From: Saccoglossus kowalevskii
Taxonomy: Eukaryota > Hemichordata > Enteropneusta > Harrimaniidae
Assembly (NCBI RefSeq): GCF_000003605.2
Contig: NW_003119936.1
Coordinates: 2,422-66,421 of the forward strand
DNA: 64,000 nucleotides
Direction: 5' to 3'
Positions 4,436 to 57,861 of the stretch are shown in pieces (within the stretch, counting starts at the first letter, position 1; each line of letters starts with the position of its first letter). The translations under genes and the position numbers were made by a program. Under the pieces are notes generated by a model. The model had not been told where the DNA came from and ran no database searches. It saw nothing but the letters and a program-made list of their open reading frames with translations.

Positions 4436-7400
4436 ATGGCCAGCACCAGGAACCGTCTGCTCGCTGAAAATCTCACCTATTTAGCAAAGCAGATAAATGT
4501 TGATAAGGTTGTTTCGAAAACTAAAGAAATGTACCCAGCAGTCATAACACCTGAACAAGTTGTGGCTTTGAATGTAAGCTATATTTAGTTCATTGTTTTC
4601 TTTTAATGGTAGATCAGGTCAGTGTCCCCAGGGTAATATTTATTTTCGTTTATATTGGTAATGAAACTGTTCAATGATAAACTGGTCAATGGGCTTACCG
4701 TAACCTTTGAGGTAAAACCCTCCTTCTTACTTGCATTGTCAACAAGATTTTGGCCTTCGATCCATATACATTATCCTTCTTCTATTTGACCATATAAATA
4801 CAGTTTTTCGTGTGTTTTTGACTTAGACATTTTCGTTATTGCATTGTGAATCACAAAACATACACACGCACCACATCAATCTGATATAGTATTTCAAATC
4901 ATGGCTCGTTTACCTGCAGGGGCGAAGCGCTATGCTGTGTGCTAGTTCAAATCTCTTATTGTGTGTTGTTATGTAAATATTAATTTTCCTGAAATTATTT
5001 ATATTTCATCGTCTGATTGTTTATGCTGATGGACAGTATAGTCCCCAGGTTAAACATGAGCTGGGTGATGCGTACTGAACCTGTGTATCGTTAAAATACT
5101 AAATGTGGTTTGTGTTGTCAACTTGTATATCTAGTCACTGTGGGCGTTTTTTCACTGCACGCTATTTCGGGCTTTTTTTTTTGGTCAGTGAGTGTAATTT
5201 ACTGGTTAGTGTGTCTATCATGTGCTCGAGTTCGAATCCTGATTTGAGTGCTGTTATGTAAATGCTCGTTTGCCTGTAATTGTATATGTACTTTCAGTTG
5301 ACTATTAAAACTTGAAATCAAAACATTTTATATTTTCTCATTCACTAGTTATTATTATACAAGATAGCGACAATCATGGAATTGTTATCTATCAACAGCT
5401 ATTAACTTTCACTCATGTGTGATAATTATATGGTTCATGATTATTATAAAAAATAAAAGTAAAAGGAACGAAATAAAACATTTTATGGTTTAAATTTCTA
5501 CCAAACCAAAAGTGTTTCTGTTTTTATTTGCAGACACGAAAACGTGAAGCACGAACTTTATACCTCTTAGATATTTTTAAAGGAAAGACAGATGGCTATG
5601 ATATGCTTTATAATGTTTTAAAAGCAACCAACCACTCCAGCACAGTCTTGAAGATATTAGAACCAGGTGTAGAAACACCAGTAACACTATGTAAGTCATT
5701 TTGTATATAATTATATAAGTATTTATTATTTTGTATAATTCGTGTTCAAATAAAATATACAACTATAAGACGTGCGTACTGTACTGTGTGTCAAAATACA
5801 AATGAATTATGTTATTGTTTTACAATACGTCAGCAGTTATGTTAATCTTTTTTACAGTACCGACCTCTCCATCTAAGCCGTCTAATGGAGACCAAGGTAA
5901 TTTTGCAATAATTCCAACATACTACCTATCAATGCAAAAGTAAGTCGCGAGTAGTGTGTGTTCAAACTACATAAGTTATATTACAATACGTCATCACCAG
6001 TTATGTTATTCGTTTTACAGTACCGACCTATCCAGCTAAGCCGTCTGATGGAGACCAAGGTAATGTTGCCAAAATTTCAACAGAATATCTATCAATGCAG
6101 GAGTAAGTCACGTGTACTGTGTGTTCAATCTACATAAGATATGTTAAGATACGTCACCAGTTATGTTAATCTTTTTTACAGTACCGACTTCTTCAGCTAA
6201 ACCGTCTGATAAAGATCAAGGTAATGGCTTCAACGTAAACCTTACACTCGTGAACAATAATATGTTGAACGAAGAATATTCGTCGCTGCGAATTCATATT
6301 AGTTAATATATTGAAATTCGTGGGTGCATTATTTGAATGCATTAATAGTTTCTGTGAAAATAGTAGTATATGGAAATTCAATCTCTCAAGACAATTTTCC
6401 GCATTATTAAATAATTAATTAATTGTTGTTCTTCTTATACATTCTAGCATATCTCTTAGCTCTAGAAAAAATAACAAAAGACTTTCAAACTGGACAACAG
6501 CAGACGTCTGAACAGATCTCCAATTTGCGATCTGACATACAGTCGGGCCAAGATAAAATGGCCGCACAGATATCCTCAATTAAATCCGACTTAGTGAACG
6601 AAATAACGGGTTTACGGAACGCCATGGATCGCATCGGAAACTTGGAAGAAGGTAAGTACATACCATATACAAAGATTTATTCATTACAGTTTCATTATTG
6701 ATCGAATATATAATAAGAGCGATGAGCCAAAATTTTGCAAACGACAAAAATATGCATAAATATGCAAAATATTATCGCCTTCGTTCAGCCAATCAAGACA
6801 AAGAATGTAAACGGAAATGAGTCGAAAGAAACGAAAAATAGAGCGTCTGGCCAATCACATGACGTGTATCATTCCTTTCATTTTGTTTCGTCCATACATT
6901 TAGCAAGTAATATACCTATCCTTCAGTATCCCGTATCATTGTATATATGACTCAGGCACCGCGCTATATCTTTATATCGTCTACGCAAACCATGGTTCAA
7001 TCTGTGTTAAATATTTAATCGTAAACTCTAACCAATTTACAGATTTTACTTCAAAACTGCTCATATTACTGAGAGCAAAGGAGCTTGTATTGTGTACACG
7101 AATATTGCCTTCCAATACATGGTGACCGTGTTTCACATATGTGTTTTTAGGGTGGGATAGTGAATACAGGAAAACGAGTTAAACGAGTAAACTGGTCAAA
7201 TCATGTATATTTCAAGCCCTCGAGTAACCGATTGTGAAATCTCAGCTGAAATCCTGGCTGGAAAAAATCTAATGCGGTAGATTATTTTTGTCAGTGAATA
7301 TGATTAGCCAATGCCTTAAAAATATATATATTGAGTATTGCCAACCATGGCACACTTAGATACATGTTGGTTGACTTATCTACAAAGGTATAGTGGTGAG

Positions 7401-15760: not shown

Positions 15761-16592
15761 GCTTGCAGATTATGACTGATAAAGCAAACTCGTGGAGGCG
15801 GTGGTAATTATTTCTTATAATGAACACTATTGTTGCTGATTTAATGACGTAAAACACCTAGTCAAGCAGATACAAAATACTGTATCGTGGAAACTGATCT
15901 TTCAATTAAAGCGGGAGGGTCGTCACCTGCGCACGCGCGAGAATTGAGTCCAAAGCGACGATAACAACACACGCTAAAAACGCAAAGGCTCACGGGCAGA
16001 CGCTTGTTTGGTAACAATGACACGCTATGGCACATGCGCAAATGACGACCTCCCCCCCCCCGCTTTAAAGGGAACATCAATTCAAACAACATAATGACCT
16101 CTAAAGAAAAAGCTCCACAAATGTAGGAGAATGCAATTTACAGTTTTTGATGTCACTTTTCATTCTCTAGATATTCAACTTTTCGTCAGTATTATGGAGT
16201 CAGCCATCTTGATTTTCAAGCAAAGGATTATGGGTAAAGTTGTCAGAAATTGAGAAAATGATTTCATCTATAACTTCAAAAGTTAAACTTCAAATTGGCT
16301 GAACGTTTAGAAATTGGTAGCATACATGTACTGCTGCCACCAATGTTTATAAAATAGTTGTCATGGAAACAGAACTGAAAATATTTATTTTTATGTTTTT
16401 CTACCAAATGCTCAAATTTCCTTATATTGTATACAATTTACCAATGTGAGTAGGTTATATAGGTGATATATTACATGTTGATCACAATAAGGGGACAAAA
16501 AAATATCATTCTATATTTCTCGACTAAAATATCGATTTTATTTGTTTTAACGTTTTTAGCAATATCTTCACTTTATGTGTATTTGTAATATT
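15761..16592. repeat. Copy 2 of the ~820-bp dispersed repeat
   Basis: Same orientation and order as 820-1635. It has 40 extra bases (15865-15904) between acctagtcaa and the MITE; copy 1 lacks them at a TCAA microhomology. It also lacks the poly-C insertion seen in copy 1. Confidence 0.88.
15910..16064 (+). mobile_element. TTAA-flanked MITE, family A, copy 2
   Basis: A 155-bp element between TTAA at 15906-15909 and 16065-16068. Its ends are better matched than in copy 1: AGCGGGAGGGTCGTCACCTG on the left and, on the other strand, AGCGG followed by a G run and AGGTCGTCATTTGCGCATG. The right end contains a 10-C run. Confidence 0.78.
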
Positions 16593-17704: not shown

Positions 17705-17710
17705 TTTATT
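17705..17710 (-). terminator. AATAAA polyadenylation signal, ArsJ-like gene
   Basis: TTTATT on the plus strand reads AATAAA in the sense of the ArsJ-like gene, about 210 nt past its TAA stop. Confidence 0.4.
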
Positions 17711-17921: not shown

Positions 17922-19440
17922 TTAGGCAGTGTGTGTCACCGCTGACGACTGAGTTGGTTCATTGTCATCTTTATTGTCAATTACCTCATAGCGACCCTCT
18001 CCTGTACCACTCCTAGAATTTAAACAGTTTAAACATGGCCCACATTGCAATCCACCTGAATTGTCATTCAGGAAGAGGGCTACACACGCAGCTACGACAG
18101 CAAATCCTACGGAAACCCAGAAACAGGACGCGAATCCCTGAGCGGTGGAAGTAGCAGCGCCAACATAGTCGTAGAGGACACCTGAAAGAAGCGTACCAGT
18201 GAGTCTTCCCATGGCGTTAGCCATATAGTAAAAACCAACATTCATTGCTACTTTGTCCCCTTCCGAATATTTAACAATCAAGTAACTATGGACCGCCGAG
18301 TTGACAGCAAACACAACAGCAAACATGATAAGGCCAACGGTTATGGCAGCAGTCATGATTTCAACAACATGTTCTTGAATGGCGTGGGAGAACTGCAGGA
18401 AACAGCCAAGGAACACTGGACACACTATCAAAATAAACCCCCACAGAGCACAGACCCATTTATTGGCTGGAGATTGCCGCAACGGCTTCAGAAGTAGCTG
18501 CGGACTCCAGCTTTGAACCTGCCCGTATATAATTATCCAGCCTGCAAGGTACGCTCCAACTGCAGCCCGCTCCCATCCAATCCCGTCGTCGCTCCGAAGA
18601 AAAAACGGAAGAGGCACCTCAAACCAAAGATCGCGAGATCCAAATAAGAAAAAACGTGCGAGAGATAAGATATTGACATTGAAGTTTTTCTTGAATATTG
18701 TACTCAACTTGATATTCTCCCGTCTTGTACGGCCTAAGTCTTTGGAGAGTCCACATATAGCCCATGGAAGTGCACATACAATCAGTACACACATAACCCC
18801 CAATGATAAATAGTAATTAATCATTAACAAAGCCGATCCTAGAAAATATCCAACGCCTTTTAGGGTGTTCTTCCACCCAGTCAGCAAAGAAACTATTTTG
18901 AACAGGCGTGTCTGTTTATCTTCTGGAGTGACGAGTTTTGTAACAGTCTTCCCCCCGAGTTTGACGAGATCTTTGGATATTCCGCAGAACATCTGTGCCA
19001 CTGTGACGTAAACTATGCCAATTGACTTGGTCCAGTTCTCCTGCCAGCCAAACAACATGCCAATACCAACGAACTGGAGACACAATCCTGTAATGAGAGT
19101 TGACTTTATCCCCCAACGTGCACCAGCAACACCTGCGACCAGGTTTGTGAAGACGCCAGCCAGTTCATAGAGGGAGAACATGATGGCCGTCTCCAAGGCT
19201 GTGAAGTTCAAGCTGAAGGCATGAAGAAGTACAATCATTCGCACAGCTCCATCGGTGATGGTATAAAGCAGATGAGGAGCTGATGATCACAAATGGCTTC
19301 AGTGCACCATAAACTCGAGTTATTTTCTCTTTTGTAGTCTCGGTGACATTATCGCTTAGAAGGGGTACTTTTTCATCTGACTGATCGTTGTCAATCTCGT
19401 CACCTGGAATATCTTCACGTGAAAGCTTATTCGATCTCAT
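17922..19440 (-). CDS. arsJ-like: ArsJ-like major-facilitator transporter with one apparent frameshift
   Basis: From residue ~60 onward the protein follows bacterial ArsJ nearly end to end: TITDGAVRMIVLL, LYELAGVFTNLVAGVAGARWG, GISKDLVKLGGKT, LTGWKNTLKGVGYFLG, ARFFLFGSRDLWFEVPLPFFL, FAVNSAVHSYL, and GDKVAMNVGFYYMANAMGRL. Bacterial ArsJ exports 1-arseno-3-phosphoglycerate made by a partner GAPDH and so confers arsenate resistance. Total length is ~504 aa against ~400 in bacteria. The extra parts are a ~47-residue acidic N-tail with EKVPLL (an acidic dileucine sorting motif, residues 23-28) and a ~50-residue C-tail with CGPCLNC and YEVI. The coding exon has no intron. The N-tail frame and the transporter frame meet around 19262-19280 with a one-base offset: sequencing error, null allele or early pseudogene. 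No GAPDH gene is nearby. Function in this animal is inferred from family only. Confidence 0.85.
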
Positions 19441-19460
19441 ATTGCCTGATGTGTACGTTT

Positions 19461-19477
19461 CTGGAAAAAAGTAAAAG
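19461..19477 (-). promoter_or_regulatory. Splice acceptor before the ArsJ-like coding exon
   Basis: In the gene's sense the sequence reads CTTTTACTTTTTTCCAG and then 20 nt of leader before ATG. This is a strong pyrimidine tract plus CAG, so the gene very likely has at least one upstream non-coding exon. A possible donor (CCTCG|GTATGT) lies at 21791/21790 on the minus strand, unproven. Confidence 0.6.
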
Positions 19478-19909
19478 CAACATTAATGTTGTTTTAACTG
19501 CGTCTGATACAGTGAATGACTACGTTTTGGAAATCGGTGTACACTTCTATTTATTAAATATTGAAATTGATATTAAACGCAAACGTCAAGGTCATAACAT
19601 AATACACCTCTAATGACAACGCGCCTCTGTGATGTTAAGGTAACATACATGGATAAAAAAAATGTTGTTCAAATGTTTTAATGGTTGCTTAGTAGTTAGT
19701 TATGAACTAATGATGTTTCAATGACGTTTACACACGATTTGCATGTGAATTATTAATACCTTATTTATCTAACATCAAATTTTCTTTGTTCGCGGAAAAA
19801 TGACCAATTGCCTCATTGTGATGGCCGATTGAAGTTTCATGTCTGACATTTGTGTTCGGTAACCATAGTGAAAACATATTTGTTTGGTGCTCATGCTGGC
19901 TGGAATAAT

Positions 19910-20558
19910 ATAATCGTATTTGATTGGTGTGTCACGAAATATAACCTCCTATTTCATTGGCGATTGGTACTTATATCTGTCACGATTGGATTTGATTGGT
20001 AGTTGTGATGGGAGTTACGAATCATAACATTAGATTTGATTGGTGGTTATAAGGTTTGTACGAATTATAACATTGGACCGATTGTGAGTTATGATGGGAG
20101 TTACACATTATAACATTGGGTTCCATTGGTAGTTATGACTGTTACGACATATAAGATTGGATTTTATTTGTAGTTATGTTTGGAGGTACGAATTACAACA
20201 TTGTATATGATTATATGGCTGTCACGAGTTATAACAGTGGATTTGATTGGTAGTTATGATGGGAGTTACAAATTATAACATTGAATTTGATTGGTACGTA
20301 TATGGTTGTCACGAGTTATAACAGTGGATTTGATTGGTAGTTATGATGGGGGTTACAAATTATAACATTGAATTTGATTGGTACTTATATGGTTGTCACG
20401 AGTTATAACATTGGATTTAATTGGTAGTTATGATGGGAGTTACAAATTATAACATTGAATTTGATTGGTACTTATATGGTTGTCACGAGTTATAACAGTG
20501 GATTTGATTGGTGGTTATGATGGGAGTTACAATTTATAACATTTGATTTGATTGGTAC
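19910..20558. repeat. 43/44-bp minisatellite with 87-bp higher-order unit, CCAAT-rich
   Basis: The right part (20221-20558) repeats with an exact 87-bp period: GTCACGAGTTATAACA at 20221, 20308, 20395 and 20482. Each 87-mer is itself a dimer of related 43- and 44-bp halves. The left part (19910-20220) consists of more diverged monomers. Nearly every monomer contains ATTGG, the reverse complement of CCAAT, about fourteen in all. The array lies 0.45-1.1 kb upstream of the ArsJ-like coding exon. Confidence 0.9.
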
Positions 20559-22684
20559 CGTTGGCTTTTGGTAATTATAACAGGGCCATTCATTCGGGTT
20601 CTTTCCTTCCATCCGAGCATTTTCTTGGAAGCATTATCAGATCTTTTACCCGAAGACATATTGGTATACATTAATGATCTGAGAAAAAATGACTTCTTAT
20701 ATTCTGACACTATAAGTTGTCCTGAGAAATTTATCACAGTCGACCGAGGCGATTTTGATCAAACTTGGTATGTTTATAATGTGTATGGCCGAATGGATGC
20801 CATTTTGTTTTATTATTTCATGTCTTCGTTTGTTTCAGTCACTTTTGATTCTACAATACAATACAATGTATTGAGACATAAACATGCACTGCACCTTGTT
20901 TTGGAATCGATTCGTTCAACAACATAAAACAGTTCTACAACTGTTTTTCTGAGATAGCTGACATGAATTCGTTCAAAGTAAATATAATGACTCTACATAC
21001 TGGATTTCGGTTGCATATCATTATTTTTCTCTTTTTTGCGATTCAACCAAATATGCTTCACGCAACGACTGGACATAGCACTATATGGACAAAATATCAC
21101 CACACTCATGGGTCGCTGTTAGTTAAGTACAATACAGGAACTGCACATTGTTCATGAATGTTTACAAGTAGGCTGAATACCTGCTGCCACCGTAAGAGGG
21201 CGTAATCAAGTAGTATCAGCTGATAATTCCGAGCTTTGTTATCTCTTATCTTGTTACAACTACTGTAATATGCACGACAAACTATCGCATTGTAAAAAAC
21301 AGTTTACCATATCTTATTTTAACTGTTTGCTTATTATTCTTATTAATATTGTAAGTTTTCATCTTTCGTAATACTTGACGATTGTAATTTCTTTGAAGTT
21401 TATGCGACTCTGAGGGGGAGTTTCGGTACATTTGATTTCTACCTTTATGCACATTTTGGCAACTGATGTAGAAAAAACATCGACGACACCTCGTTATAGT
21501 CAGCCTTTGATTTATAGTGACGTTAGTGGGTTTGTTTGGGCGTTAGGTAGTTAAACGGTGCCATGTTGTGCTCATATCGCCATGCGTACGAACATCACCG
21601 AGTAACGGGGATTATGAACATCTCGAGATACAACTCAAACCCCCGGCCACAGTCCTGGACACAGGTTTACCCAAAATGCAGAGATAACTCACCGATTTAA
21701 ACGCGGTCTATCACAGCGACCCAGAAACGATGTTCTCAAGCTCTGCTGAATAATACAAAGGTCACCTTGCACAAAGTAGGTGTTACATACCGAGGTCGGA
21801 TGTCACGTGATTGCAAAGAAACCCAATACACGCGACCTTAATGCCCGGTCTGAAAGTCCGTCTTTTGTGATGTTGATTCACCCCCACAAGGACGTTCATT
21901 CAGCTGTGTGAGCGCATTGTATTGTGGGGTTGTTTTGAGAATGATGATCCTTGATTTTACAAGGATGCCACGCATTGTGGGTTTATTCTGAAAATGATCT
22001 TTTTTCCACGAAGTAAAAAACAATTACTTAATTAATATAAACAGTATGCCCAGCAGGATTTACACTAGAGGGTGCTATTTTGGCCAAATAAAACGACGCT
22101 CCTAAACCGGCGAAGTTAATGGTCGTCGTCGTTACATAGAAGGGTGATTTGTTGAAGTAGTATGCATTAGTCAATGTCTGTTCTGGCTGGAGTGCCATCT
22201 ACGCGTGTACACCAAAGCAATTCTTCGAAATGCATACTAATTTGGCAATTGCAATTGGCAGTTGACATTTTATACACTATGAAAGGCCTTCAATGGACAG
22301 AAATCAGAAGTCGTTAGTTCAGAAGTCAAATCTTAGAGGTTCAGAAATGTAAAATAAAAGAAAAGAAAACAAAATATTCTGATTAAATACTTTGTATTTT
22401 GTTTCATTGTCACTAAGCTGTCATTAGTGCTGAGATCATGTTTCACTAATGGTCTGTGATTTAATGTGCACAGCAATCTGGGTCAATTTTGCTTCACTCA
22501 TGATGACCCACACTGTTTTCAGTGACAATTTTACTCAGTGTTGATGCGGTCGATCTATGGCTGTGACAACCAATAAGTTTATTAGTTGTCTGAGACTGTA
22601 TTAAGGATGGTTGAATGTAAATAGTGAATATTCAACTACCCGTGCAAATGCCCCGTGATGTTCTCACTTCCTCAGTAGTAATCA
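20559..22684. other. Intergenic, no gene recognised
   Basis: A 119-codon open frame (20568-20927, +) has no recognisable domain. A local imperfect duplication (gcattgt...tgtgggtttg/ttctgaaaatgat) sits at 21905-22005. Nothing else was identified. Confidence 0.5.
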
Positions 22685-27800: not shown

Positions 27801-28151
27801 ATTTTCTTCATTTTTTTCATTTTCTGTTATTTTTGTCCATGATTGAATAAAAAAAACGAACTACAAATACTCCAAGATTTTTTTGACTTTTTGTAGGATG
27901 GGATTTTGGATGGGATTTTTTTGAGGTCAAAATCCCCCACCCCAAACTAAAGCAAATAAGAGTTTTATCCACCATCGATCTTTTGACGTCGTCAATTTAC
28001 AAATAAACATTTTCATGCTCGCAACTAAAAGTATGCAACATAAAGATAGTTTATGAAGAAAGCATAGTCAATAACACCGTTATGACACCGCCATCTGCCA
28101 TGTTGCTGTCGTAAGAGCACGATACATTCAAATTCACTTTTAACCCTTTAA
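24817..28151. other. Intergenic, no gene recognised
   Basis: Includes a GC-rich hairpin at 27175-27214 inside a 128-codon minus-strand open frame (26995-27381) that matches no family known to me. No splice-supported coding exon was identified. Confidence 0.5.
27175..27214. other. GC-rich imperfect palindrome
   Basis: CCACCGTCCCTC and GAGGGGCGGTGG face each other across a 4-nt loop (CGTT). Pairing could continue into gctcga/tcgac with a bulge. It stands out in AT-rich surroundings. It could be a hairpin RNA, a small foldback remnant or chance. Confidence 0.5.
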
Positions 28152-28308
28152 AGCGGGGGAGACATCACCTGCGCATGCGTCAGATGGCCATAGTGTGTCA
28201 TTGTTTACAAACAAGCGTCTACCCATGAGACTTTGCGTTTTTAGCATGTGTTGTTATCGTCGTTTGGGACCCAATTCCCTCGCGTGCGCAGGTGACAACC
28301 CTCCCGCT
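28152..28308 (-). mobile_element. TTAA-flanked MITE, family A, copy 3
   Basis: A 157-bp element between TTAA at 28148-28151 and 28309-28312, inverted relative to copies 1 and 2. Its ends are AGCGGGGGAGACATCACCTG and, on the other strand, AGCGGGAGGGTTGTCACCTG. It has no expanded C run and is not embedded in the 820-bp repeat, so it gives an independent view of the element's ends. Confidence 0.8.
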
Positions 28309-31300
28309 TTAAGGAACTGCATCACGATATAATTGGTCCACAGTCAGACACTACTTGCATGCCATGTGACTATATTGGCTGTCACTTCACGCTTATCCTC
28401 CTATTTGGTATGTGTTAGCGCCCTCATACGGCTCAATAAAAGAATGCATTACGTATCATCTAGGTAGTTTTATGCAAGCTCTTAGCATGTCTGGGACCGT
28501 AAGCACATGAAACACGATATGGCCGCGTCTTAGTTACATCAAAGACTGTACGATAATGCGTGAATTTAAATTATCAGTTGTGTTTTTTTTTTCAGTAGAA
28601 ACTGTGCAGTATTGACAGTCATTACAAAATAGTGACACTATCGATTCAGACACTACTGGTGAAAGGGTCAATGTCCGAAACATCTGGTTAAATTGAATAA
28701 TTACAAATGACTACAATTACGTTCTACATTTGATTACATTCTAGACAGTATACAACGTGTACATAATAGAGAATAATACATCACACAGGAATGCTACGCT
28801 GCGTCATGTCAAATCTCGGCAGTGGAGTGAAAAAGCAATTACTATACAGCAGCCTGTTGAGAAAACAAAATGGCGCCTGTATTTCCCGGCTTAGTAACAT
28901 GTTTACTTCTTCAGGCCTTGAATTATTATATTGATATCAATTATTATTTTTGAAAAATAATGGTGAGTACTGGGTGTTAAATACAATTCAATTCAAGGAT
29001 GTGACATTCGTATGGATTATTTTGTTCGTGCAGGTGACTGCCCGTCTTTAATTCAATACTCGTATATCGATTGCAGTTGTATTATTGATGTACTAACGCA
29101 TGTGACAACTAGGTTTGTATGAACGAAATAAACACTGCGATTTTCTTTATGGCTATTGTCCTACGTGGAAAAGTCGTTATTAAGTCTAATACACGAAACA
29201 GCTGCCGTACATCATTACATGTCATGAATTAATACCTCGGCTCTGAGTTTAGCTGTATGGCTTTGTCTACTGAGTTTAAACGATGTATTCCGCTGTTTCG
29301 GAGTCTGGTAAACATCAAAGACCTGCCATGAATGATACGCATAGATAGACACATGAATACATGCTACTTATTTTACTCTTCAGTACAGAGAAAGCGCGTT
29401 ATTCACCCTTCAGTCCCTCTAGCGACAAATCTCTCCTTTGACGTAAAGGGGTGAAACGAAACCTGACCAATCTCGTTTTGTTCAGTAGTGGTCCGCCAAA
29501 GAAGATTATGTTTATAGATTTTAATATATTCTAGACCACATGGCAACACAAGAAAATGAATTACAGTTGTCGATTTGAATGACATTGCCTTCGATCAATA
29601 TTAATACGTCATTTTGACGGCACTGGAGCGTCCCTCCACTAGAGGGCGCAATGTATAGGAATTGTGGAATGCAGACCACTATTCTGTTTCATGTATTACA
29701 AAAGAGTTATGGAATAGCTATATCTATCTATAAATATCTAGCTCTAAAATCCGAAGTATGTGCATCAATAAAAGAAAAATCACACTTCATAAAAAATAAT
29801 ATAGAAAATAATAATACTAATAATGGATAATAATTTTCTGGCTCACAACAGCTGAATACGACAACCCAAATATAACAATATACTCCCACATGGACGAACC
29901 TGAGTTACCGACAAAATACAGGTTTCACACAACAATTGGACTCCCATATACGATAATGTAAACACTTGAAAAGCAGGGAAATGTTACACACAGGGCAAGT
30001 ATCAAAATTAAAAAAAAGAGTGGTTTGTTTATTTTGAGTTGCTGTTATCCCAAAAAGGATTCTATTCAACCACACAGTGCCTACAATATTTGAACGATTT
30101 TACCCAGCAGAAATATGCACGCAAAGCTCTGAAGATTCTGATACTAATGCGATTTCAAGGGGGAGATTAGAATCGCATGTACATATGTGACCCGCGATTG
30201 TTCGAGATATAACGAAGGTTTAATAAATTATCTTGAATTTACACAGTATTGTAAAAAAAGAAGGCACCCTGAGTGTGTAAATCTCCGCAATTGATACAAT
30301 CTACACATCTTCTCTAATATCTCTGCATTATTGCATATATTGATTATTCTCACATAATAAGCTTCTAATTTCTTTCGAAAAAAGACCAAATTGAATCCCG
30401 AATAGGTTTTGGGATCAGAGGATGATCCTATCTTCAATGGTGAAGAATCGTTTAGAAAATTGTCTCCAAAGCAAGCGAATAATTTTTTTTTTAATTTAGT
30501 CTTTAGGCTATAATAGTCATCGACAAATTTGGCTGCCATATCTACAAGATCAAAATCTTGTTCAACCTCGCTCTTACTGATTGGTACACTTTCTGTCATG
30601 AGAATCCATCTATACGTATTTCATAAGTTATAAATATTTGATCATTCCTGAAATTGCGTTTTTTCTCTGGCATGCATATGCAGATTCACACCTTTGGCCA
30701 AATATTTTCGATATGGTTGTTTCCATAACAACCGTACGCACATCTCTGCCAGCATATAATGAGTTCGTTCTTGTATCAAGAACATCACTTCCTTCCCGTA
30801 AAATTTTGATTCATAAATGACAAATCATTTCCAAAATTGTTGTATCCTCAGTATCTGTACGCCTGTATGTTGTTTACCGCATTTCAGAGTATAGCGGTAA
30901 ACTACCGTGTATTCATGATAGCAAACAAACAAGACTATGCCATGTAGGTTCTCCAGGGGTATTTAAGTGTGGGACAGAATTGTGGAATACCAGTCTAGGC
31001 CAGTCTCACCACACTGCAGTTTTCAGATTAATTTATTTATAATTATTTTATTTTGCTGTTGCCACAAAGGACACGCTTGGCACGCCCTACTTTGCAACGT
31101 GTACAGGCTTTCAGGGATTGTTTTGTCCAAATTTCTTAAGGAAAGAGATGTTCATGCTTGTCTTTTTGGGCGGGGCGGCGTGCTAGTAACAGGGGTGTTA
31201 TTTTGTTATTTATATTTTTGATTGCATCTTTTATTTGTTGTTATTTTTGTCAGTAGTTATTTCTTTCCCTAGTAATGTTGCTGTGGCCGTGCGCAAGTGT

Positions 31301-35100: not shown

Positions 35101-36329
35101 GATTGATTATATGTTTTCATGATTCAATTTCAATGAGAATCAGTGCGCCAGCTGTTGAACTTTCTACTATGTGCATTTAGCACTAATAATATCACAATAA
35201 GAAAATAGCAGCATCAAAAGTTGCGCATCACCAAGCACTGTCGCATTTCACACGTTGATTTCATAACTACTGCTAGGATCAGTGATTTTATCGAGATGCC
35301 TGTCAACAATACATTAGCTGAACAATGTAGCCACCCAACTATTGATCGCACCTAATTTGCAAACATCCAATTGACTTCATAATTGGTTACTGTAAATCCC
35401 GTGGATAATGTGGTTTCTACTAGTAACTAGGGGAATTACAAGGTTTTTAAAATACGACCTTTGTATTATTAATCTTCTACGTAGTCGTTGCCATGGAGAC
35501 GTTCATTAGCCTTTGGAAATTAGATTACATCTTGCTTATTTTGCATTCAAATAAAACAGAAGGGAATTGCACTAAATGAGACGCATTCTTGTAGTTTTGA
35601 GTAGTGGCACAAATGTTACTCTCGTGCTTCCTCTCTAGGCAAAATAACATAGACTCAAGCGTCATACATTTCCCAACGGAAGGTCGATTTATTTCCCTCT
35701 TGTTGTGCAGTGAATTCCTCTCGATTGCTTTTTAGACTTCATTTGGGGATTGCATATGATTCGATTTTTCTATAACACATATCGATCTATAACACACGAC
35801 ATTGCTAGAAATCTGAATTACCCTAAGTCGGCAATCACCCCTTAAAAAATCCATGTTGTTTACGAGTAAACAGTTGTCTGAATACCCTTCATTGTTTAGA
35901 GAAGGTTTATTGAGATAATATTTGTACATAGTCTACACCACGAGTTGCCAAGATACAGGAGACCGTTAATGTACAAGGCTAAATGATAGTTTAGTTTTAT
36001 TAACACTCAAATACCGGCTCGGCGTCTATCAGACTAAATAGTCCAAACCGATGGGTCGAACATTTTTCAGCCCTGAAACAAAAGGCTACCATCACCGATT
36101 TCGCTGATGTTTTGCAGATCCCTTGAATTGTTGGCTACTCCCAGCAAAGACACAACATACTAGTATTTATTCAATCATTGACAATTATAACGTATATATT
36201 TCCCCCATGACATGTGCTCAATATTATGAACAATTTATACCAATTAACATTAGGAACAATTATTCTACTCTGTTTTAACTTGCAATAAGAGGTTCAGTAA
36301 TTGATTCGTTTTATAGTGTTTTTATGCCA
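32156..36329. other. Intergenic, no gene recognised
   Basis: AT-rich with only short, unrecognised open frames. A small duplication cattgggcaatt at 32453/32464 is the only repeat noted. Confidence 0.5.
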
Positions 36330-38032
36330 AATTACACTCAACCTGTGTCTGACTTTTTTAGAATCGGGTCATTTCATGCCCCTCTCATTACCAAACAAAT
36401 TGGTTCCCGCACTACCCCCAAAAATCCCTGGTTAACTATAGAGTTAAAAAAGGCAATAAATAAAAAACATAAATTGTTTTCAAAAATGATTAGATGTAAT
36501 TATAATGCGGACAGCGTGGCTAAATATAAACGCTATATAAATTATGTGACAAATGCTCTAAGAGATGCCAAACGTAATTTCTATTCACAACAATTTGTTG
36601 AATATAATGGGAAAACCGATAAAACCTGGAAAATAATAAATGAAATATTAGGAAGAGGACATTCAAAACTAAAATTACCGGACCACATTGATGTCCATTG
36701 CCCCGGTAGCAACGACTACACTGAATGACCAAGATGCAATTGTGAATGGGTTCAATAACTTTTTTACCAGAGTTGGGGTGAACCTTGCAAACGAAATCCC
36801 ACCACGTACATTCGACATTTACAATGCACATGTGACAAATTCATTTTTCTTGTGTGGTACCACAGCTCATGAAGTGTCAGATATATTGAGAGGGTTAGAT
36901 AAAAAGAAGGCAGTTGGTTATGATCAAATAAGTGCTAAGCTACTCATACATGCAGCGGAGTATATTTCTAAGCCCCTCTCTCACATTATAAATCTTTCAT
37001 TCTCTTCTGGTTCGTTTCCAAATGCTCTTAAAATAGCAAAGGTTACCCCTATCTTTAAAAAGGGAACTCCTTTTGACCCTGGTAATTAGACCTGTCTCAG
37101 TACTGCCCCAATTAAGTAAATTATTCGAGAAAATAATCAACAAACAATTAACTGTTTATTTGAATAAATTCAATATATTTTATTCCAAGCAGTACGTTTA
37201 GAGAAAAATTTAGTACAAAACTCTCTGTTATAGACCTAGCACAAAAGATATTAGATGAAATTGATCAAGGGAATGTAGTTCTTGGAGTTTTCTTAGATCT
37301 TAGAAAGGCGTTCGACACTGTTAATCACTCAATTTTACTCAGAAAATTATCTGGATATGGTATTCGAGGTCTACCTTTGGACTTGATCGAGAGCTATTTA
37401 CAAAAAAGGAAACAACATGTAAGTGTGAATGGTGTAACATCAGACTCGCTTCCAATAATATGCGGTCTTCCGCAAGGGTCTGTACTTGGTCCTACTTTGT
37501 TTCTTTTTTATGTTAATGATATAGCATTATCATCCACGTACTTTGTTTGCAGACGACACCAGTCTATTTCATACATTTCAATCTGGGAAAAGTATTGATC
37601 TACACTATGTTAATGAAAAGTTAAATCAAATAGTTGACTGGTGCGACTGCAATAAACTGACAATAAATACTAACAAAACTGAATATATACTATTCAGAGG
37701 TAAAAATACAAAGGTAGTGACTTTTGGGAGTTTGACAATTAGAAACCAAAGCATTAGTGACGTAAAGTGTACTAAATATGTTGGTGTGCTGCTGGACCAC
37801 AAGTTAAATTGGAAAAAACATATTGATCATGTGATGAGCAAAATAAGTGTCAAAGCAGGTATCATATATAAATTAAGAAAAATTGTTCCAAGGCCAACTC
37901 TATTATTATTGTATAACTCGTTTATTTTGCCACATATTTCATATATGTTAGAAACCTGGGGAAATACCTATAAAACTTGTTTACATCCAATACTAATTAT
38001 TCAAAAACGAATTGTACGTACTATTTCTGGTT

Positions 38033-38082
38033 NNNNNNNNNNNNNNNNNNNNNNNNNNNNNNNNNNNNNNNNNNNNNNNNNN
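38033..38082. other. Assembly gap (50 N) with identical 40-bp flanks
   Basis: The 40 bases before the N run (37993-38032) are identical to the 40 after it (38083-38122). The reading frame is also continuous if one copy is removed. The gap is therefore most likely two overlapping contig ends that were not merged, and no sequence is missing. Confidence 0.95.
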
Positions 38083-38463
38083 CTAATTATTCAAAAACGA
38101 ATTGTACGTACTATTTCTGGTTCACCTCCTTTTTCACATACTCTCCCATTGTTTAACAGCTGTAATATACATGTACTTGATATATACAAACAACACCAGC
38201 TCCAATTAGCCTTTTTCGTTTTTGATAGTATTCATGGACATTTTCCTAATTCAATATCCCAACTCTTTCGGCATGTACCCAAAACTTATCATACTAGATT
38301 TCAAACCAAAGGAAATTTAATAATTCCAAAGTACCGTATTAATGTAGGTCAACGTTCTATTAAAAATACTGGCCCCAAGCTATGGAACCAGCTACTACAG
38401 AATATAAAAGACATTACGTCAAGGAAATTATTTAAGTTAAAAATGAAAGAAAAATTAATTGAA

Positions 38464-38484
38464 TAATAATAATTATCATTATTA

Positions 38485-56800: not shown

Positions 56801-57066
56801 GTCGAAAGAAGTCGGCGTGTTTGTTCGTAATCCCCAATAAATGAGTAGCGATCACGCCGTGTTCATAGTAACGCACCTGCATGACAATTCGTTCTGCGCA
56901 GACGACGTGCTAATTGTAATATTCGATTACCCAGAACTCTTTGCGATCCGTGTGAACAACAAAGCTGTATTCTCCCGCTCACTCAGTCGAGTACTGCAGT
57001 GCGCAACCAGCAACACTCGTATTGCGTAGGTCTTCAGAGCAGATTGACGCGATATTGAGAGTCAAA

Positions 57067-57861
57067 ATGACGAGTTCATCAAACAACGACACATTTCCAT
57101 CGATTCTAGAGTTAAATGTCGGCGGACAGTTGTATACAACGGCGCTTTCGACGCTGGTTAAAGAGACCGACTCGTTATTAGGGCAGATGTTCAGCGGCAG
57201 TGCTAAGACGGGCGTTCAAAGAGACTCCCGTGGTCGTTATTTCATAGATCGTGATGGCATACTGTTCCGTTATATTCTGGACTACCTTCGCAACAGTAAA
57301 CTGGTGTTACCGGAAAATTTTACTGAGAAGGAAAGGCTGAGGCAAGAGGCTGAATTCTACAAGCTCGGCGGTTTAGTCAAGGCGATTGCGAGAGACGGAG
57401 GAGCAGTAACGCAAACTGGCCGACCGACTTTAGCGCCAATAAATAACACACCGCAAAATCATGTTAACAGCGTTAATGCAAATGCGATTGGTAAGACCCC
57501 TGCTTATATTACACTGGGGTACCGAGGAACGTTTGCATTTGGTCGCGATGGTCTAGCTGACGTCAAATTTCGTAAAGTCACACGTATTTTGGTATGCGGA
57601 AAACAGATGATCTGCAAAGAGATTTTCGGCGAAACATTGAACGACAGCCGTGATCCAGACCGCGTACACACCTCGGATCGCTACTCTTCGCGCTACTTTC
57701 TGAAGCATAACTATCTGGAACAAGCCTTTGATATGCTTGCTGAGGGTGGTTTCCGTTTTGTTAGCTGTTGTGCATCGGGGACGAGTACTATTGTCGGCTC
57801 ACCGGAAAGCGAAGAGAGCAAATGGAATCATTATAACGAATTCGTATTTCAACGATCGTAG
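57067..57861 (+). CDS. KCTD12-like: KCTD12/16-type BTB protein
   Basis: An intact single-exon gene of 264 aa. Residues ~12-105 are a T1/BTB domain (ILELNVGGQLYTT...RGRYFIDRDGILFRYILDYLRNSKLVLP). Residues ~115-143 are a Ser/Asn-rich linker. Residues ~145-262 are the H1 domain of the KCTD8/12/16 group (YITLGYRGTFAFGRDGLADV, EIFGETLNDSRDPDR, SSRYFLKHNYLEQAFDML). In vertebrates these proteins assemble as auxiliary subunits of GABA-B receptors, binding via T1 and shaping G-protein signalling via H1. The C-terminal H2 domain of KCTD8/16 is absent, as in KCTD12, which is also intronless. The ATG at 57067 (context gtcaaaATGa) puts the T1 domain at the expected distance from the N-terminus. No upstream in-frame ATG precedes it back to the stop. 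Confidence 0.93.
   Translation: MTSSSNNDTFPSILELNVGGQLYTTALSTLVKETDSLLGQMFSGSAKTGVQRDSRGRYFIDRDGILFRYILDYLRNSKLVLPENFTEKERLRQEAEFYKLGGLVKAIARDGGAVTQTGRPTLAPINNTPQNHVNSVNANAIGKTPAYITLGYRGTFAFGRDGLADVKFRKVTRILVCGKQMICKEIFGETLNDSRDPDRVHTSDRYSSRYFLKHNYLEQAFDMLAEGGFRFVSCCASGTSTIVGSPESEESKWNHYNEFVFQRS

Follow-up and report, generated by a model that had tools for sequence, protein, structure and literature searches.

An ArsJ-family gene, of which a single copy was found, is, as judged from its sequence, present in the nuclear DNA of an acorn worm, a burrowing marine deuterostome. The gene was located on the minus strand of a 64-kb stretch of genomic DNA (the window in the following), its core frame spanning positions 17922-19286. 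The ArsJ family itself was known before from bacteria and algae, and the novelty lies in this unexpected host. A lateral origin of the gene is likely, and we regard it as reasonably probable that ArsJ was acquired long ago in this way, was refitted with host features and exports 1-arseno-3-phosphoglycerate or the arsenate freed from this ester. Within this reading, we infer expression, substrate, membrane and direction of transport, and likewise that the gene has not truly lost its function despite a break in the assembled reading frame.

The core of the encoded protein was matched by the NCBIfam profile NF033734 (MFS_ArsJ) with an E-value of 1.9e-117 and 392.8 bits over profile positions 13-390 of 392 (378 of the 392 positions), the next NCBIfam family scoring 12.8 bits. 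This value lies slightly below the curated cut-off of NF033734 (400 bits), profile positions 1-12 being absent from the scanned frame, and six bacterial ArsJ members reach between 558 and 601 bits. The segments DKVAMNVGFYYMANAMGR and FAVNSAVHSYL, on which the preliminary description had based an ArsJ-like membrane core, were found verbatim in the minus-strand open reading frame, and the profile match bore this assignment out.

To evaluate conservation, the animal protein was aligned with 35 bacterial ArsJ sequences picked from 80 fetched loci, to which it is between 41% and 46% identical. The animal ArsJ keeps 92 of the 108 columns that are invariant in these bacteria (85%, n = 35) and 110 of the 145 columns that are 90% conserved. 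When the bacteria were left out in turn, every one of the 35 kept at least 99% of such invariant columns, which makes the animal protein a clear outlier. Nevertheless, all 14 invariant charged residues were retained, ten of them being lysine, arginine or histidine, and these ten basic residues would suit the transport of an ester or oxyanion with several negative charges.

It is hardly conceivable that the gene represents an ordinary animal MFS transporter merely resembling ArsJ. A general match to Pfam MFS_1 was indeed obtained for the core (8.8e-16), but its 58.2 bits compare with the 392.8 bits achieved by the ArsJ profile. Moreover, mapping of the ArsJ protein on the host genome (572 Mb, 4830 contigs) revealed no other place at E 1e-3, even though host MFS genes exist, and already the loose first look of this search had yielded one candidate. 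Among PDB chain sequences, the ArsJ family profile matched only a VMAT2 construct, with an E-value of 0.0086. Within the tests applied to the sequence, membership in an ordinary animal MFS family was thus rejected, in agreement with the earlier assignment. The scan of the host for MFS_1 members is no census, since scores were calculated for nine of 190 candidates and its list does not include ArsJ. The host locus L081 (G000:C4136:146025-147032) features a single-exon MFS frame of approximately 545 amino acids that resembles a vesicular acetylcholine transporter by eye; intronless MFS frames alone are therefore no sign of transfer.

The host was assigned to Saccoglossus or close kin by means of its mitochondrial contig (17,037 bp). 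On this contig, cox1 is inverted, nad2 precedes nad1, and nad4L is situated between nad3 and nad4; ATA occurs at some positions typical of isoleucine, AAA reads as lysine, a few AGA codons stand at typical serine positions, and AGG is missing from the seven genes checked (gene names and conserved residues by eye). For Saccoglossus kowalevskii, an inverted COX1, a transposed ND1 or ND2, AUA for Ile, AAA for Lys, AGA for Ser and a lack of AGG are described (PMC3121625). The contig carrying the gene (C1274, of which the window covers bases 2422-66421) belongs to the same 572-Mb assembly, and ArsJ is embedded in host nuclear DNA inside a gap-free stretch (positions 10918-38032) with host repeats on both sides. 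Upstream, at a distance of 1.5 kb from the ArsJ exon, a dispersed repeat (20937-21058) was identified, of which 17 other copies occur on 17 other contigs. Downstream, a second dispersed repeat (15906-16049) shares 86% identity with part of contig C1273, and another copy of this C1273 sequence was found at 28148-28313 (88%). A degenerate retrotransposon with a reverse transcriptase is located on the plus strand at 36279-38466 (RVT_1 7.9e-15 in 37164-37595; outer limits set by eye), and its left part, up to 38032, shares the gap-free stretch with ArsJ. Furthermore, an exon of an animal gene of the KCTD8/12/16 type (BTB + H1; plus strand, 56956-57861; H1_KCTD8_12_16 3.7e-54, BTB_2 9.2e-19) lies on the same scaffold, with one 50-N gap in between. 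Bacterial contamination of the assembly, with which the bacterial type of the family and the intronless coding stretch would agree, is accordingly very improbable and was ruled out by the host repeats flanking the gene in one gap-free stretch. The animal exon on the same scaffold, the identity of at most 48% to any bacterial sequence found, and the lack of a GAPDH active-site motif in the window likewise argue against it. The linkage to flanking eukaryotic DNA, on which the preliminary description had made its reading depend, could hence be confirmed.

The assembled reading frame is less simple than initially supposed. As described previously, the core is free of introns, 454 codons being open on the minus strand from 19286 to the TAA stop at 17922-17924; they encode membrane helices and the carboxyl tail. 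The single intact coding exon assumed for 17922-19440 was, however, not found, because the frame switches within membrane helix 1 (approximately 19262-19286, minus strand; limits set by eye). Following a stop, the core frame becomes open at 19286, and the ATG at 19440 is out of phase with it. This ATG begins the amino-terminal segment MRSNKLSRED... (19287-19440, minus strand), which differs in frame from the core and represents, by eye, a cytosolic tail and the start of helix 1. As assembled, no intact frame gives all membrane helices, a finding that bears on the intactness of the gene and not on its family. Scanned alone against NCBIfam and Pfam, the amino-terminal segment gave no family match; by eye, its KPFVIISSS...TITDG string resembles the start consensus of bacterial ArsJ (RNYxxVTxAYWAFTxTDG).

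The frame break may represent an assembly error, an allele or a recent lesion, which are not separable because no second ArsJ copy was found for comparison. A tiny intron behind the frame change is not favored: the phase-restoring GT-AG pair near the break would delimit approximately 28 bp (by eye), and splicing these out would cost helix 1 the very portion in which it is similar to bacterial ArsJ starts. Neutral decay of the core was simulated in 500 runs with indels at one-tenth of the substitution rate. Stop-free outcomes with one indel or none made up 36%, 9%, 2% and 0.2% of the runs at 1, 2, 3 and 5% divergence, respectively. Since an open core is thus rare under simulated neutral decay, the gene appears to be in use, or to have been so until recently, and any loss would be recent. 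That ArsJ is recently dead, with a real and fixed break and no full-length transporter being made, is in our view rather unlikely. The position of the break inside helix 1 and the single copy found in the genome agree with such a loss, but approximately 450 further codons are open, the 14 invariant charged residues are intact, and neutral drift beyond approximately 3% would usually have given stops or more indels. In addition, a small consensus error is plausible because the assembly is fragmented (4830 contigs, N gaps).

Host-type features of the gene were identified as predicted motifs. A consensus for a 3' splice site, TTTTTTCCAG, was found immediately ahead of the exon, its AG occupying positions 19461-19462 (minus strand), so that a putative exon would begin at 19460, and an AATAAA polyadenylation signal consensus is present at 17705-17710 (minus strand), 212 nt beyond the stop. 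Two string matches to sorting signals were found on the minus strand, namely DEKVPLL, an acidic dileucine-type motif in the amino tail (19357-19377), and YEVI, a YxxI motif in the carboxyl tail (17979-17990). The former resembles the sorting signals of the acidic dileucine type that lysosomal carriers possess. In shuffles of the same tails, the form [DE]xxxLL arises in 11% and YxxI in 16% of cases, the proline form [DE]xxPL[LI] being found in 0.5%. Hence, of the eukaryotic trimmings listed in the preliminary description, the splice-site consensus and the polyadenylation signal stand as predicted motifs, whereas strings like those in the tails also emerge by chance. Given these shuffle frequencies for the general and the proline form of the dileucine motif, vesicular targeting of the animal ArsJ via its tail, as in the route of a fern, is a mere suggestion. 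The animal protein features 58 residues ahead of the aligned core, compared to 17-30 in six annotated plasmid ArsJ sequences.

Regarding nucleotide composition, the third-position GC content of the ArsJ core (0.471) is close to that of the KCTD exon (0.470). The observed/expected ratio of CpG, by contrast, is lower in the core (0.70) than in the window (1.0) and the KCTD exon (1.41), which counts against the favored reading. Upstream of the ArsJ exon, a degenerate tandem array with units of approximately 44/87 bp and many CCAAT boxes extends over 19927-20555 (minus strand). On the ArsJ strand, 19 CCAAT boxes are located in 19461-20600, out of 89 across the window. The array could serve as a promoter element, or its boxes could be a mere by-product of the repeat.

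To place the gene among its bacterial relatives, the best 80 loci of a GTDB scan were considered. Among these, a same-strand open reading frame with the GAPDH active-site motif is located upstream in 70 cases, and within 300 nt in 67; the neighbors were called by motif and not by family scan, and some of the other ten loci lie on cut-off contigs. In six of eight plasmid ArsJ loci, an annotated GAPDH lies beside the match, the remaining two records being without annotation, and five of these six GAPDH neighbors are named 'ArsJ-associated'. These bacterial relatives look like genuine ArsJ. The earlier statement that ArsJ is known from bacterial ars operons agrees with such loci as far as the neighboring GAPDH is concerned, but falls short in that algae are described as carrying the family, too (PMC7826186, PMC9812998).

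None of the bacterial sequences found in the GTDB scan, on plasmids or in the phyla of the bacterial genomes G001 and G004 is more than 48% identical to the animal ArsJ. In the phylum of G001, matches at E 1e-20 were obtained for 12 out of 288 genomes (best 48%), and in that of G004 for 17 out of 294 (best 47%; a short fragment reaches 48%). Among plasmids, 66 records were obtained, none of them at 60% identity or above. A single-protein search of viral contigs revealed no relative; an alignment search recovered two, at 36-39% identity, and one phage fragment was found at 40%.

Three trees were calculated. Tree 1 comprised 75 rows, 14 of the 88 bacterial rows having been removed as near-duplicates; tree 2 comprised 70 rows, 19 of the 88 having been removed, namely the 14 near-duplicates and, in addition, five plasmid rows, of which two had been flagged as long branches in tree 1. 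The 41 rows of tree 3 consisted of the animal sequence, 29 of the 88 bacterial rows used before and, from the phylum of G001, 11 out of 12 rows. The animal branch is very long in all of them (4.29, 2.21 and 3.46 changes per column in trees 1-3, respectively) and deviates in its letter make-up. In trees 1 and 2, the animal ArsJ fell into a mixed set of starred support, separate from the remaining bacteria, together with rows from Kiritimatiellae, Thalassospira and Myxococcota (tree 1: 11 rows, 100/98, including two long plasmid rows; tree 2: nine rows, 98/96). In tree 3, containing more rows of the mixed-set kind, no starred set was obtained. Within tree 2, the join with Thalassospira is weakly supported (78/8), and clades of the animal ArsJ with cyanobacteria (AU 0.388), Myxococcota (0.396) or the Kiritimatiellae row (0.099) were not rejected. 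Thus, the animal ArsJ has no stable place across the three trees from which a donor could be named; as regards the nesting in bacterial ArsJ that the preliminary description had anticipated, two of them show a mixed set and the third no starred set.

Two database records in tree 1 deserve mention. The ArsJ of L003, a MAG titled Bifidobacterium breve, sits with sequences from Thermoleophilia and other actinobacterial MAGs, which suggests a mislabeled record title. The ArsJ of L022, on a MAG contig titled Halobacteria archaeon, pairs with Ectothiorhodospiraceae on very short branches, which suggests a misbinned contig and not an archaeal ArsJ.

The long branch and the occurrence of eukaryotic ArsJ in algae leave room for an algal or older eukaryotic route. 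Accordingly, of the ancient horizontal acquisition proposed earlier, the lateral origin is retained as likely, but not a direct transfer from bacteria, eukaryotic ArsJ being known in algae. That the gene arrived via eukaryotes, either as an old eukaryotic ArsJ common to green and red algae and lost in most animals or from an alga that had been eaten or lived in symbiosis, is a serious possibility, to which we give somewhat less than an even chance. It is in line with the finding that no bacterial sequence exceeds 48% identity, and green algae are described as having ArsJ with GAPDH3 and PGK neighbors (PMC7826186). In addition, the ArsJ of Cyanidiales is reported to stand alone and to be monophyletic in a tree with Viridiplantae and other eukaryotic lineages (PMC9812998). 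On the other hand, algal ArsJ and GAPDH3 are described as being either both present or both absent (PMC7826186), and no second GAPDH was found in the acorn worm. The green algal gene (Chlamydomonas Cre07.g354150, with GAPDH3 and PGK3; PMC7826186) has in common with the animal one that it is a eukaryotic ArsJ; the animal gene is single and without GAPDH3/PGK neighbors. The ArsJ of Cyanidiales resembles it in standing alone in a eukaryote (PMC9812998) and differs in the host. Both algal comparisons were made by published description.

Compared to bacterial ArsJ (NF033734, including members from P. aeruginosa DK2 and the V. cholerae var operon), with which it has the whole membrane core and all 14 charged residues in common, the animal gene differs by its longer amino tail, the splice acceptor consensus, the broken frame and its neighborhood. 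The adjacent ArsJ-associated GAPDH that is usual in bacteria was not found: the window is free of the GAPDH active-site motif, the search applying to motifs not split by an intron. The host genome yielded a single GAPDH locus, which is located on contig C1273, is divided into several exons and looks by eye like the ordinary animal enzyme; neither an ArsJ-type nor any second GAPDH was detected. Since no bacterial-type partner was found, the organoarsenical export put forward in the preliminary description would have to draw on the GAPDH of the host cell itself. The GAPDH contig C1273 (length 158,195) is numbered next to the ArsJ contig C1274 (length 160,193), which is probably due to chance; nothing shows physical adjacency.

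With respect to the favored reading of a laterally acquired exporter, the following route can be proposed. Arsenate would enter the cell on phosphate carriers, and host GAPDH would take it instead of phosphate, forming 1-arseno-3-phosphoglycerate. ArsJ, being an MFS carrier whose conserved lysines and arginines would suit a multiply negative substrate, would then carry either the ester or its released arsenate from the cytosol across the plasma membrane or into vesicles. The splice acceptor, the polyadenylation signal, the long cytosolic tails and the host-like third-position GC would represent host features gained by the gene. As GAPDH is able to join arsenate to glyceraldehyde-3-phosphate, a lone ArsJ could act in an animal cell, and one carrier gene may suffice because the glycolytic enzyme is in itself capable of producing the ester. 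According to PMC9601151, the first ArsJ work relied on the GAPDH of an animal, the rabbit. The same source describes the glycolytic Gap of V. cholerae as performing better with phosphate and poorer with arsenate, and makes the case that free arsenate is the main export of ArsJ in this bacterium. A Chlamydomonas arsJ mutant is reported to be arsenate-sensitive (PMC7826186), which supports the proposed function by homology. In the fern Pteris vittata, GAPC1 and OCT4 embody a common idea, in that a host GAPDH is described as making 1As3PGA and a carrier as loading it into vesicles (PMC9454679); OCT4 is not ArsJ, so that the analogy is purely functional.

More specifically, acorn worms might possess a working arsenate export consisting of the lateral ArsJ and glycolytic GAPDH, with the tails addressing an endolysosomal or cell-surface membrane, a proposal that we put forward tentatively and with clearly less confidence than the reading it extends. 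If true, it would be the first such arsenate-export route in an animal and a gain of detoxification by one gene.

The very long branch and the deviating make-up would also fit an altered function of ArsJ. We consider it unlikely, though, that the protein functions as a carrier but has switched to another substrate, such as a phosphate ester of normal metabolism transported into vesicles or lysosomes, and has thereby ceased to be encoded by an arsenic gene. Apart from the long branch, the 16 changed columns among the 108 invariant in bacteria, the longer amino tail with its DEKVPLL string and the failure to find an arsenate-specific GAPDH are consistent with this idea; however, the fact that none of the 14 charged residues fixed among the 35 bacterial sequences has been lost argues for the same kind of substrate.

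In literature searched for ArsJ with 1-arseno-3-phosphoglycerate, eukaryotes and Metazoa, no animal ArsJ was recorded in the titles and the opening parts of the abstracts among the papers listed, and the same sections of the literature on hemichordate horizontal gene transfer and arsenic held nothing on an animal ArsJ. The main texts of a hemichordate genome paper (PMC11175523) and of a compendium of horizontal gene transfer in Metazoa (PMC13342648) contain no word beginning with arsen-.

An arsenic gene with inferred horizontal spread has been described for animals before, namely AS3MT, whose distribution is attributed to transfer from bacteria to eukaryotes (PMC5398495). Inorganic arsenic is reported to be methylated by most mammals and other AS3MT-bearing animals (PMC5398495). 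AS3MT methylates arsenite, whereas the ArsJ route would act on arsenate. The animal ArsJ would thereby add a second, independent arsenic route beside AS3MT, operating on arsenate itself and without its reduction to the more toxic arsenite. In the acorn worm genome, exons resembling an arsenite methyltransferase by eye were matched by NF008823 below its cut-off (E 6.4e-15 and 3.3e-9); since this profile also gave matches in 14 out of 14 control genomes, it proves little on its own. No ACR3 match was obtained in the host genome by a search that might overlook genes divided into many exons.

Ten other open reading frames of the window were scanned, six of them being without matches. Two window frames matched virus-named families below cut-off (E 0.0055 and 0.001), which was taken as chance. 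Finally, three tandem putative micro-exons of 39 nt each were noted on the plus strand (5858-5896, 6021-6059 and 6182-6220). Each is preceded by TTTTACAG and followed by GTAAT, and all share one phase and code for variants of PTSPSKPSNGDQ, so that the arrangement looks like an in-frame exon duplication.
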